Shown here piece after piece: positions 2,606 through 10,003 of a stretch of DNA of 64,000 nt. The stretch is from Pseudobacteriovorax antillogorgiicola (GTDB lineage: Bacteria > Bdellovibrionota_B > Oligoflexia > Oligoflexales > RGVZ01). Each line of letters begins with the position of its first letter. The stretch's first letter is position 1. The notes under the pieces are model-generated. The model made no database searches. It was not told the DNA's origin and worked only from the letters and a program-made list of their open reading frames with translations. Location of the stretch: assembly GCA_945865565.1 (NCBI GenBank), contig CAMBEK010000001.1, positions 227,795 to 291,794 of the forward strand, read 5' to 3'. The translations under genes were made by a program, and so were the position numbers.

Positions 2606-3769
2606 TCAATCATGTAAAAAAAGAAGTGTGCTATCGCCATAGCTGAACAGCCGGTATCGCTTCTGAATCGCAGAAGCATACGTTGATTTTGCATTCTCAA
2701 GACCGATCAATGCAGAAATCAGCATAAAAAGCGTCGATTTTGGTTGATGGAAGTTTGTCAGGATTGCATCGGCCACGAGCGGATGAAAACGCGCTTCAGC
2801 GTATTGCGGGTGAATGTACAGGCTTGTTTCGTGCCACTGGCCAGCCAACTCCTCCGGCGGAATTCCGCGTTCGGAAGACATTTTCCAGAGGCTCTCAATT
2901 GCGCGAAACGAGGTTGTGCCCACACAGATAATGGTCATGCCGGATTTTTTAGCCGACACTACGGCCGACACAGTTTCGGGTGGCACAATGAAAAATTCTT
3001 TATGGATCGGATGCTTTTCAACTTCTTCTTGTCTGACGGGGAGAAATGTCCCTCCCCCAACATGAAGTGTCAATGGCGCCATCTGGATTCCTGTTTTGGC
3101 AAGGTCTTCCAAAACCGATCTGGTGAAATGAAGTCCCGCCGTTGGCGCCGCCACGGAACCCTTGGTCTTGGCAAACACGGTTTCGTAACGGGAGCGATCT
3201 TCCGGATCTCGAAGGTGCAGATTATCCCGTCGAATATACGGCGGCAGTGGTGTTTCTCCAACCTGCTCAAGCCACGAAAAAAAATCCAAACGCCCCGACT
3301 TTGGGTCGCCAGTGAATTCAACTTCAATGCAGGGCACCTCGCCTTCGGAGGCCTCTTCGATTCTTCTGACGACGCCTTTTACCAAAGATGCATTGGGGAC
3401 CGACTGGTCTTTTTTCTCCCCAGAAAAAAGAATCACTGTGCCTGGACGCAGCTTTCGAAGCGGTTTTGCCATAGCTCGCCAGGTGAGACCGGATACTTGT
3501 TCAAGCAAGAAAATTTCTACCCGCGCACCGGTTGGTAAAAACCCATGAAGCCTGCTTTGAAGGACGCTGGTATCATTCAGAAGAAGCAACGTTTTTTCAG
3601 GGAGGCACCGCGGCAGGTCCTTGAATATGTGGTGTCCGATGGTGCCGTCGGCCTTTCGCACGAGCAAACGGGATTCGTCACGAACCTTTGCCGGCTTTTG
3701 CGCAACAAGTTCAGGTGGGAATTCATAGTCAAAATCGGCGAGCTTCAAAGGAATCGTGGTCACTTGCAA
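2606..3769 (-). CDS. queA: S-adenosylmethionine:tRNA ribosyltransferase-isomerase QueA
   Basis: QueA transfers and isomerises the ribosyl group of SAM onto 7-aminomethyl-7-deazaguanine in tRNA to give epoxyqueuosine, in the cytoplasm. Family landmarks are present: LADFDYEFPPELVAQKPA near the N-terminus, LLLLNDTSVLQSRLHG, GSVAAPTAGLHFT, LHVGGGTFLPV and LTNFHQPKSTLFMLISAL. The 387 residues are slightly longer than usual (about 340-360). The start codon is TTG at 3769 with AAGGG about 8 nt before it; a later TTG within the first eight codons is possible. Its start abuts the start of the divergent gene at 3770, so both promoters must lie inside the neighbour's coding sequence. Other queuosine genes are not in the window. 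Confidence 0.95.
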   Translation of the reverse strand: MQVTTIPLKLADFDYEFPPELVAQKPAKVRDESRLLVRKADGTIGHHIFKDLPRCLPEKTLLLLNDTSVLQSRLHGFLPTGARVEIFLLEQVSGLTWRAMAKPLRKLRPGTVILFSGEKKDQSVPNASLVKGVVRRIEEASEGEVPCIEVEFTGDPKSGRLDFFSWLEQVGETPLPPYIRRDNLHLRDPEDRSRYETVFAKTKGSVAAPTAGLHFTRSVLEDLAKTGIQMAPLTLHVGGGTFLPVRQEEVEKHPIHKEFFIVPPETVSAVVSAKKSGMTIICVGTTSFRAIESLWKMSSERGIPPEELAGQWHETSLYIHPQYAEARFHPLVADAILTNFHQPKSTLFMLISALIGLENAKSTYASAIQKRYRLFSYGDSTLLFLHD

Positions 3770-6907: not shown

Positions 6908-9241
6908 TCACGAGGGCAGGAAAATTGGCTGGCCAAAATGGAGGCCGTCCCAAGCCGGTTGGTTCGCTCGGCCAAGGGGCCTTACATCAATCCCAGGAGG
7001 AAAATTCGAGCCCTGAATTTCAGATGGCAATGTCAGCAGTTTTATCTGGGGCCATGCCTTGCGCCAATTTTCCATAACGTCCTGGACCGGTGTGCCTGCC
7101 AAGATTGGACATACCCTGATTTGTGGGCCAAATGTGGCGGGCTCTGCATCTAAGGCAACCTGCACAACTGGCAGCCCTCGTCCCGGCCACCGCAGCGTTT
7201 TTTGACCGAGGCTGCGCAACAGGATACCGGCCTGGTGGCGATCAGGCAGGACTTCTCCCCAATCGGACCACCACTGCTTTTGCAGAACTTCCTGAACCCC
7301 GTCGGCCAGGCGCGCGGCGCTTACTTCGGGCGGAACAAAAATTCCCAGCAGGCGGCTCGACATGCAGCCTTGCTGCATCAAAGAGAGGGTGTCTCGCAAG
7401 ATTTCAGGCAGGTTTGCTTCCAGATTCTTCAGGTGGATCATGCTGACGGCAATGGCCTCGCCATGCCCAATAACACGCGTCGATTCTGGCACCGAAGAGC
7501 GAATCACGTCGATGGTGGCATCGTCTCCAAATGCCATGACGGCATCCCACACAGGATCTTGCGATGGCGCTGCCTTAAATTTCGTTTTACGGAAGCGAAA
7601 CTCCGGAGGCAGCAGTTCAATCTGGATTCCTGCACCCAAGAGACGGCGGACCAACCTGCAAATGAACGATCCAGGATGGCTCTGCCCGCGATTAAGACGG
7701 ATGGAGACGGCACATCCCGATGCCAGGGCAAGGGTCATGGGATAAACAACCGCCAAGGGATGGCTGTTAGGTGGAATGATCAAAAGGCGTTTGCCGATGG
7801 AGCCGACGCCAGAAGCCGCCATACAACTCATCCAAGCATCTTGATGGTGCAAAACCTTGGTGATGCTCACCAGGAGGTCGTCCAAGGCGAGTTTCGCGGC
7901 TTTGCGGGACTCTATGGCTTGCACCATTGCGTCCAAGGCCTCGTGACTTTTGATAAATGCCTCGACTGCGCCAAGCACAAACCGGTTTTCAAGCCGCTTG
8001 GGTGATTCGCTGGCAGGAGCAGAAATCGTCGCGCGGTGGGGAGTTTTTTCGACGTCGTCGTAGCTGCCGTTGTGGGAGCCGGCGTTAGAGCTGACGTTAG
8101 AGCTGTCGTTAGAGTTTTCTGCCAACATGGAACAACCCTTGAGCGGGGCGGTGTGGGCACGGCCAAGTAGTTCAAACGAGCCGTCTGCCGCCAATCGCAC
8201 GACATCTTCAGTAACGATCGGGGCCGGGATGTCGACACGGTTGAAATCAAAGACGCCAAGCAAGCCGGTTCCACTGCGCGAGGCCGTCATGATCAAAGAG
8301 TCTTTGGAGTCAGGCTCGGTGGGGTGGCCATCCAGGGGCTGTCTCAGGCCGTTGACCACAAAGGGGACGACGTTTTTCTGAAAGCGCAGAGCCCGCCCTG
8401 GGCCCGGCGCGGTATAGGCCGCCGATGCAAGTTCACTCATTCCATATTCCGAGACGATCCGTGACCGCGGAATCCGGAACCCCCGCTCTAGCGAATCAAT
8501 CAGCCAGGATTCACCGACGTCTCGAACCTTGCCTTTGGTTCCACCCGTATAGAAAGCCAGACTACCCCTTGGCAAAACCGGCAAAAGACCGCGGTCGATC
8601 AGGGGGACAAAGTGAAATGAAGTCCCAAAAATCCAAACTGGGGAATCTTGGTTTTTTAATAAATTACCGAAATCATCCAGGAATTTTGGTTCCTCGTGAA
8701 CCCCATCGGGAACCTTCAGGTAGGCCACAGGCATGGCCTCGCCGAGCCACTCCACCATTGCCGCGAGGCTGCTTTCGGGCCAGTCCGCCGTTGGCGGAAT
8801 CAGGCTGATCCCCCGAGCCTTCGGATCAGCCCCACGGGATTTTAGCATTTGGGTAAATCCGTCGGTGATCGCCGATTTATAGGCCGCCAAACCCGCCTCT
8901 GAAAAACTTGACAGGGATCGCCCCTGGGCGCTGGTGCCGCTAGAGCGAAAAATTCGCGCCGCCCCGGCGGTGCCTTGGGATACCGAGGAAACGTCTAAAT
9001 ATCTGAAAGAACTGATATTTATAGCATTTAGATGGGGACCTTCCCCAGCCAACTCCAACTTTGGAAAAAGGCTTTCAACCCTACCCTTTTCCTTGCTCCT
9101 GGCATCGGCCAGCAATCGGCGGAGGGCAACATCATGACGTGCAATAAATTCCGCGGGAAGATAAAGTTTGTCGACGTCGTTTATCAAGGTTATAAAAGCC
9201 GGATAATCATGAGCAGTGAATACTTTGTCAAACTCGATCAT
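6908..9241 (-). CDS. LuxE-LuxC fusion: acyl-protein synthetase plus acyl reductase
   Basis: The 777-residue protein has two domains. Residues about 1-365 match the LuxE/acyl-protein synthetase branch of adenylating enzymes: RSSGTSAQGRS (100-104 is SSGTS), FYTGGTKGK and SEYGMSE. A Ser/Asn-rich linker (about 372-395) of short near-repeats follows. Residues about 410-777 match LuxC-type acyl-CoA/acyl-protein reductase of the aldehyde dehydrogenase superfamily: IIPPNSHPLAVVYP and MQQGCMSSR, with the likely acyl-accepting Cys at 626. In luminous bacteria, LuxE and LuxC are separate subunits that reduce fatty acids to aldehydes with ATP and NADPH. A fused form should do this in one chain, giving fatty aldehyde for an unknown use; no luxAB or luxD is nearby. 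ATG 9241 has AGGGGA 8 nt upstream; a GTG at 9286 is less likely. The start region overlaps scpA head-to-head. Confidence 0.8.
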   Translation of the reverse strand: MIEFDKVFTAHDYPAFITLINDVDKLYLPAEFIARHDVALRRLLADARSKEKGRVESLFPKLELAGEGPHLNAINISSFRYLDVSSVSQGTAGAARIFRSSGTSAQGRSLSSFSEAGLAAYKSAITDGFTQMLKSRGADPKARGISLIPPTADWPESSLAAMVEWLGEAMPVAYLKVPDGVHEEPKFLDDFGNLLKNQDSPVWIFGTSFHFVPLIDRGLLPVLPRGSLAFYTGGTKGKVRDVGESWLIDSLERGFRIPRSRIVSEYGMSELASAAYTAPGPGRALRFQKNVVPFVVNGLRQPLDGHPTEPDSKDSLIMTASRSGTGLLGVFDFNRVDIPAPIVTEDVVRLAADGSFELLGRAHTAPLKGCSMLAENSNDSSNVSSNAGSHNGSYDDVEKTPHRATISAPASESPKRLENRFVLGAVEAFIKSHEALDAMVQAIESRKAAKLALDDLLVSITKVLHHQDAWMSCMAASGVGSIGKRLLIIPPNSHPLAVVYPMTLALASGCAVSIRLNRGQSHPGSFICRLVRRLLGAGIQIELLPPEFRFRKTKFKAAPSQDPVWDAVMAFGDDATIDVIRSSVPESTRVIGHGEAIAVSMIHLKNLEANLPEILRDTLSLMQQGCMSSRLLGIFVPPEVSAARLADGVQEVLQKQWWSDWGEVLPDRHQAGILLRSLGQKTLRWPGRGLPVVQVALDAEPATFGPQIRVCPILAGTPVQDVMENWRKAWPQIKLLTLPSEIQGSNFPPGIDVRPLGRANQPAWDGLHFGQPIFLPS

Positions 9242-10003
9242 TTCGAGGGTCCCCTGGACCTTCTGTTGCACCTTATTCGCGTGCACGAGATCGATATTTT
9301 TGACATCGACATTTTCAAACTTTCGACCGAGTACGTCGGCTACCTGCGCTTGATGAAATTTGATGACCTTTCGGACGCCGGCGCCTTCATTGAGATGGCG
9401 GCGACTCTGATCGAAATCAAGTCCCGGATGCTTCTACCCCAGGACGAGCGCAAGGTCACCAACGAGGACGGCGAGGAAGAAGATCCCGTTCTGGCCTTGC
9501 AGCAGCGTCTGATCCAATACGAGGCCATCCGAAAAGCCGCGGCGGCTTTGGCCCTGTTGCCCCAGGTTGGCGTAGAAATTCAGACCAGCTGGGAATGGCA
9601 GCGCCTGGAAGAGGTTTTCAAGGACGTGGAGGCTCCGCTTAAGGGCGACCCCGCCATGCTGGTCGTCATGTATGAGCAGATGTTGCAGTCTCTTGGCGAC
9701 CGCAAGGTTACCCGGGTCGAGGCGCAGCGTCACATGGTAAGCCTTGAGGAAACCATCGCCCGCATGTCGGCGGATGTTGATGTTTTGCGTTTCGCCTTGT
9801 TTCAAGGTTTTTACAACCGGTTTGAATCGCGCTACGAACTGGTCGTACATATATTGGCCGTTCTTGAGCTGGCCCGGCAGTTTAAAATGAAGTTTTACCA
9901 GCAAGATTTGATGGGTCCGCTTTGGATTTATCAATCGGATTGCGATGTGACGGATCTGCCTTTTCATGAATCCAAAGAGCAAATGATGATGGTGGAAGCA
10001 TGA
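9209..10003 (+). CDS. scpA: Segregation and condensation protein A
   Basis: The 264-residue protein begins with the ScpA signature FVKLDHFEGPLDLLLHLI, followed by EIDIFDIDI and IEMAATLIEIKSRMLLP, and has the typical winged-helix C-terminus. ScpA is the kleisin that bridges SMC heads and recruits ScpB in chromosome condensation. The frame is open upstream to 9032, but homology places the start at ATG 9209. Its stop overlaps scpB by 4 bp (ATGA), indicating translational coupling. The gene overlaps the 5' end of the divergent LuxE-LuxC gene by 33 bp. SMC itself is not in the window. Confidence 0.95.
   Translation: MSSEYFVKLDHFEGPLDLLLHLIRVHEIDIFDIDIFKLSTEYVGYLRLMKFDDLSDAGAFIEMAATLIEIKSRMLLPQDERKVTNEDGEEEDPVLALQQRLIQYEAIRKAAAALALLPQVGVEIQTSWEWQRLEEVFKDVEAPLKGDPAMLVVMYEQMLQSLGDRKVTRVEAQRHMVSLEETIARMSADVDVLRFALFQGFYNRFESRYELVVHILAVLELARQFKMKFYQQDLMGPLWIYQSDCDVTDLPFHESKEQMMMVEA

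Follow-up and report, generated by a model that had tools for sequence, protein, structure and literature searches.

A LuxE-LuxC fusion protein of Oligoflexia as a probable carboxylate reductase of queuosine biosynthesis

The fusion gene and its protein

The 64,000-nucleotide stretch of DNA analyzed here (the window) carries, on its minus strand, an open reading frame in which a LuxE-type domain is joined to a LuxC-type domain (Table 1). The longest form of this frame, 6908-9286, comprises 792 codons counted from a GTG, and the ATG at 9241 is codon 16. The initial annotation had given the gene as 6908-9241; this is the same minus-strand frame, but 9241 is an internal ATG and the longest frame reaches 9286. 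The true start codon is uncertain because both candidates overlap the start of the divergent scpA gene near 9209. In a close relative of the same genus (G002, locus L048), an in-frame stop lies immediately upstream of the ATG that corresponds to 9241. Residues are numbered here from the GTG, and Cys641 corresponds to Cys626 of the initial annotation.

Table 1. Features of the fusion gene and the neighboring queA gene, with positions in the window
Feature	Positions	Strand	Basis or remark
LuxE-LuxC fusion gene	6908..9286	minus	stop TGA 6908-6910; longest start GTG 9286, alternative ATG 9241
N-terminal LuxE-type adenylation/acyl-Cys domain, ~residues 75-387	8126..9064	minus	Pfam LuxE in fused relatives; PaaK-type fold
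SSGT phosphate-binding motif, residues 115-118	8933..8944	minus	sequence and alignment
SSLxxM, residues 172-177, family-specific invariant	8756..8773	minus	37/37 Q-linked LuxE vs 0/5 canonical
TGGxK motif (TGGTK in the window protein), residues 247-251	8534..8548	minus	sequence and alignment
EYGMSE motif, residues 280-285	8432..8449	minus	sequence and alignment
Cys385, predicted LuxE-type acyl-accepting cysteine (GCS)	8132..8134	minus	invariant in Oligoflexia alignment and in 37/37 Q-linked LuxE
Low-complexity Ser/Asn-rich linker	7985..8125	minus	sequence; pLDDT <50 at residues 380-432
C-terminal LuxC-type (ALDH fold) reductase domain	6914..7984	minus	Pfam LuxC 24 bits; 7xc6_A structural match
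Cys641, predicted LuxC-type thioester/catalytic cysteine (GCMSSR)	7364..7366	minus	invariant in alignment
queA, tRNA preQ1(34) S-adenosylmethionine ribosyltransferase-isomerase	2606..3769	minus	NCBIfam QueA above equivalog cut-off

The earlier description of a single-chain LuxE-LuxC protein was confirmed by profile matches and by structure prediction. Pfam LuxC (PF05893) matched the window protein at 22.6 to 24.1 bits, just above the cut-off of 21, over residues 581-647 only. Pfam LuxE (PF04443) missed the window protein, which fell below the reporting level, but it matched the same fused ORF above the cut-off in four relatives (L038-L041). Split orthologues on a Verrucomicrobiota contig (L101) scored 56.7 bits and 148.7 bits against the LuxE and LuxC profiles, respectively. 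The AlphaFold2 model of the fusion (mean pLDDT of 77, pTM of 0.79) consists of two confident domains with a disordered linker at residues 380-432. The closest solved structure overall was 7xc6_A, the LuxC chain of the Photobacterium LuxC-LuxE complex (Z of 24.5, rmsd of 4.3, 366 aligned). When the N-terminal half was modelled alone (pLDDT of 86), the nearest folds were PaaK-type adenylating ligases with Z of ~18, several of which carry aryl-acid ligands, and the LuxE chain of 7xc6 was not among the best 50 structural matches listed for this model.

The LuxE signature, composed of SSGT, TGGxK, GMxE and a C-terminal GC cysteine, is invariant or nearly so in our alignments, and both Cys385 and Cys641 are invariant in an alignment spanning Oligoflexales and Silvanigrellales. 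The SSGT, EYGMSE and Cys626 motifs that had been described as intact are indeed present in the sequence, as is the Ser/Asn linker. Loss of the Cys626 region in close relatives, which had been raised as a possibility, was not seen; this cysteine is invariant across the class Oligoflexia. A pseudogene is ruled out by the invariance of the catalytic residues.

The neighbors of the fusion in the window are scpA and scpB, an sprT-like gene, a gene for an M14 peptidase, and queA. In agreement with the initial annotation, which had pointed to the lack of a lux operon, neither luxA, luxB nor luxD was found near the fusion. Within the window, Rfam matched tRNAs only, and no Rfam match to a preQ1 riboswitch was obtained in 13 loci.

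Spread of the fusion and relationships of its LuxE domain

Phylogenetic profiling, which the initial annotation had suggested, recovered the fusion in 51 of 56 related genomes across the class Oligoflexia, in most of them as one frame of ~650 to 870 amino acids. Since the two halves are joined in most of these 51 relatives, a fusion produced by chance or by assembly is ruled out. In the congener mentioned above (G002; L048, L007), the frame is broken at the linker into two ORFs that overlap, and the motifs of both halves are intact; this form may represent either a natural re-splitting or a frameshift. No viral contigs carrying the fusion were found.

Outside Oligoflexia, in Verrucomicrobiota, Armatimonadota, Hydrogenedentota, Acidobacteriota and others, homologues of the fusion are mostly encoded by separate luxE and luxC genes, whose order is unchanged. 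Two long LuxE-containing frames, one of 757 amino acids in a Verrucomicrobiota genome (G145; L196:6241-8514) and the other of 841 amino acids on a Phycisphaerae contig (L124:4653-7178), are possibly independent fusions.

In a tree of LuxE domains, a branch with an SH-aLRT of 100 separated the fusion-type clade from the canonical LuxE that Oligoflexia genomes with the fusion also encode. Within the tree, Oligoflexales and Silvanigrellales grouped together, beside Hydrogenedentota. Seven residues, Y136, S172, S173, L174, M177, E280 and D347, are common to all 37 rows of the queuosine-linked (Q-linked) LuxE and are not the consensus in five canonical LuxE sequences, whereas both groups share the catalytic residues. 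The SSLxxM stretch that includes four of these residues is a candidate substrate-recognition element, judging from its pattern of conservation.

Two further sets of LuxE genes were encountered. Rhodothermales LuxE genes of the same clade (L098, L104, L110) lie beside plsY, gpsA and an AIRS-family gene, with no recognized luxC adjoining, and these proteins may differ in role. The host genome of the window also contains a second locus (L001; G000:C2:328677-332873), where a canonical LuxE of 382 amino acids is followed by an 845-amino-acid LuxC/AMP-binding fusion. This locus matches the same Pfam families with strong canonical scores. Unlike the fusion of the window, however, it belongs to the canonical LuxE clade, has another architecture, is patchy among relatives, and displayed no link to queuosine genes.

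Association with queuosine genes and exclusion of QueF

In 23 of 34 Oligoflexia loci, queA and the fusion are no more than ~5 kb apart. Three lineages (L064, L073 and L075) have queA directly after the fusion in the same orientation, and there the genes that part the two elsewhere are missing. QueE (L177; 287 bits to TIGR04349), Tgt and QueA were all found in the host genome (G000, ~90% complete), which yielded no match to QueC or QueF. Judging by its nearest named relatives, this genome is an Oligoflexales MAG. Among the 51 genomes with the fusion, 50 contain Tgt and 45, the host genome included, contain QueE. QueE was undetected in the remaining 6, most of which are incomplete, and incompleteness may account for these gaps.

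A true QueF (363 to 367 bits, NCBIfam QueF equivalog) was found in only three of the 56 relatives, G026, G028 and G037, all of which lack the fusion. Thus, none of the 51 fusion genomes has a true QueF (Fisher test, 3.6e-4, ignoring phylogeny). The other two fusion-negative relatives are G055, which lacks Tgt, and G022, which contains Tgt without QueE and has neither the fusion route nor the QueF route. A true QueC (~200 bits) was found only in G026 and G028 in a search of 16 relatives and 12 Verrucomicrobiota and Silvanigrellales genomes, and it was absent from the other 14 relatives and from all 12 of the latter. Weak matches to PF14489 (20 to 30 bits) occur in fusion genomes, and the strongest of these, in G006 (L136), proved to be FolE. 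The fusion itself has no homology to QueF (PF14489), LuxC being the sole profile that it matched; by sequence it would be a functional analogue of QueF and not a member of its family.

The same pattern was evaluated in 240 genomes of Verrucomicrobiota, the phylum of one carrier of the split genes, with this LuxE counted at a score of at least 260 bits. Eight genomes carry the Q-linked LuxE. QueF was above the cut-off in 0 of these 8 and in 195 of the 232 genomes without it (Fisher test, 8.9e-7, ignoring shared descent). The mutual exclusion of this LuxE and QueF therefore recurs in two unrelated phyla. In Verrucomicrobiota, the split luxE-luxC genes are mostly followed by queD, a gene of 120 to 150 codons, representatives of which scored above the QueD equivalog cut-off. 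QueE was undetected in two genomes with a luxE-luxC-queD arrangement, G056 and G063, possibly also owing to incompleteness. One Verrucomicrobiota contig (L101) contains queE, an aminotransferase gene, luxE, luxC and queD, in this order on one strand.

The aminotransferase is a class-III PLP enzyme. In the host genome (L177:77-1348), the start of its gene overlaps the stop of queE, and it directly follows queE in 27 of 30 QueE loci, seven Verrucomicrobiota genomes among them. The three loci without it belong to G028 and G037, both fusion-negative genomes with QueF, and to G040, on whose 11-kb contig no aminotransferase was found. The gene order is luxE-luxC-aminotransferase on an Eremiobacterota contig and aminotransferase-luxE on two Hydrogenedentota contigs. 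All 32 aminotransferase sequences retain the PLP lysine. The 25 NCBIfam matches listed for the enzyme all score below their cut-offs.

The three Silvanigrellales genomes examined contain the fusion and QueE, but an aminotransferase gene adjoining queE was not found in any of them. This would fit a fusion that makes preQ1 by itself, reducing the acyl thioester with ammonia to an imine and then to the amine, with the aminotransferase serving elsewhere; QueF likewise performs a Cys-linked double reduction. However, the aminotransferase adjoins queE in 27 of 30 loci and is missing there in the QueF genomes, and its presence beside luxE in several phyla also speaks against this reading. We consider a fusion acting alone very unlikely.

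The initial annotation had proposed a fatty acid reductase that makes long-chain aldehydes for wax esters, signaling lipids or hydrocarbons. Such a role is consistent with the LuxE-LuxC fold and motifs and with the top structural match, the LuxC of a fatty acid reductase from luminous bacteria. However, the conserved Oligoflexia and Verrucomicrobiota neighborhoods of the fusion and its homologues contain no gene for lipid or wax-ester metabolism, and the links run instead to queE, queD, queA and the aminotransferase. The exclusion of QueF in two phyla, the separation of the LuxE half from canonical LuxE, and the distinct residues of all Q-linked members likewise speak against it. Production of fatty aldehydes is thus highly improbable.

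An ordinary QueD was not found in the family of the window. A 313-amino-acid protein of the host genome (L141:3223-4164, G000:C2) has a partial PTPS/QueD domain, and the second half of the protein contains the sequence LLHGH. It is probably a divergent QueD and may stand in for the ordinary one, as its Silvanigrellales counterpart adjoins QueE. The PTPS proteins of G016, G023, G044 and G049 were rejected as QueD; the copies in G016 and G023 probably serve tetrahydropterin synthesis, since their neighbors are an SDR gene and, by eye, an apparent aromatic amino acid hydroxylase gene. In some Oligoflexia, genes for PTPS, an SDR and an apparent aromatic amino acid hydroxylase stand in a row (L144:4190-7176, L145:3821-6810), which makes synthesis and use of a tetrahydropterin their probable function.

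The host genome has two Tgt paralogues (L142:3705-5417 on G000:C13 and L143:3994-5103 on G000:C6), one of which, of 571 amino acids, bears a C-terminal extension of ~200 residues. Second Tgt copies are found in many Oligoflexia. These copies, together with the linkage to queE and queD, which says more about the substrate than about the end product, leave room for a different use of 7-carboxy-7-deazaguanine (CDG). The reductase and aminotransferase might convert it to another 7-deazaguanine product, for instance the aldehyde or a different amine, that enters a secondary metabolite or modifies nucleic acids in some other way, while preQ1 for tRNA is salvaged. This is unlikely, given that Tgt and QueA are conserved alongside, that QueA requires the aminomethyl group, and that QueF is missing exactly where the fusion occurs. 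Moreover, no phage record encodes a LuxE of the Q-linked type.

A proposed route from CDG to preQ1

Taken together, the domain identity, the motifs and their conservation, the operon links, and the pattern of presence and absence are the observed basis for placing the fusion in queuosine biosynthesis. With a probability of roughly three in four, we propose that it is a single-chain carboxylate reductase of this pathway, filling the step of QueC and QueF between QueE and Tgt. In E. coli, according to PMC5372724, QueC converts the carboxylate of CDG to the nitrile preQ0, which QueF reduces to the aminomethyl group of preQ1.

For the fusion, we infer the substrate, the aldehyde intermediate, the cofactor, the amine donor, the role of the aminotransferase, and the use of the preQ1 product for tRNA, as follows. 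CDG would be produced by QueE and adenylated with ATP by the LuxE half, which would load the acyl group onto Cys385. Cys641 in the LuxC half would then take over the acyl group from Cys385, and the resulting thioester would be reduced there by NAD(P)H to 7-formyl-7-deazaguanine. The class-III PLP aminotransferase would convert this aldehyde to the aminomethyl compound preQ1, which would be put into tRNA by Tgt and then elaborated by QueA. The presence of both halves in one chain would confine acyl transfer to a single polypeptide.

The proposed reductase has the same two domain types as the LuxC-LuxE fatty acid reductase (PF05893, PF04443; 7xc6), in which ATP-dependent adenylation is followed by transfer from the LuxE cysteine to the LuxC cysteine and by reduction to the aldehyde with NADPH; the conserved motifs suggest the same sequence of events in the fusion. 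In contrast to the enzymes of luminous bacteria, the Oligoflexia protein is one chain with E before C, has its own LuxE clade and invariant residues, comes without luciferase or LuxD, and is tied to queuosine genes rather than to lipid or lux genes. QueC and QueF carry out the net step that we propose for the fusion route, from CDG to preQ1, at the corresponding point between QueE and Tgt/QueA. They are unrelated proteins, however, and act via an amide and the nitrile preQ0, whereas the fusion route would proceed via an aldehyde and PLP-dependent transamination.

Pairs of a carboxylate reductase and a class-III aminotransferase are familiar from natural-product pathways, where reductive release is followed by transamination. 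The logic of converting a carboxylate to an aldehyde and then to a primary amine is the same, but the route proposed here would act on a free 7-deazaguanine base and serve tRNA modification.

The best reading of these data is a non-orthologous replacement of QueC and QueF by a LuxE-LuxC reductase and an aminotransferase. It is likely that reduction of CDG by LuxE/LuxC, followed by transamination, is a hitherto undescribed way of making preQ1 without passing through preQ0, with the reductase fused in Oligoflexia and split in Verrucomicrobiota and several other phyla. Such a route also probably explains how queuosine is made in genomes that contain QueE, Tgt and QueA without QueC and QueF. We found no report of a LuxE/LuxC queuosine route in the open-access literature, and with bioRxiv and most subscription journals outside that search, priority is uncertain.

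Most bacteria contain queuosine, which eukaryotes obtain as a micronutrient, and its synthesis is taught as a single pathway via preQ0, QueC and QueF. If the proposal is correct, there would be a second route to queuosine, built from unrelated enzymes and with a chemistry of its own: a single adenylation, a thioester bound to the enzyme, an aldehyde, and PLP-dependent amination. Surveys that rely on QueC and QueF as markers would then count some organisms that make queuosine as auxotrophs, and the annotation of a set of LuxE and LuxC genes as fatty acid or acyl-CoA reductases would be wrong.
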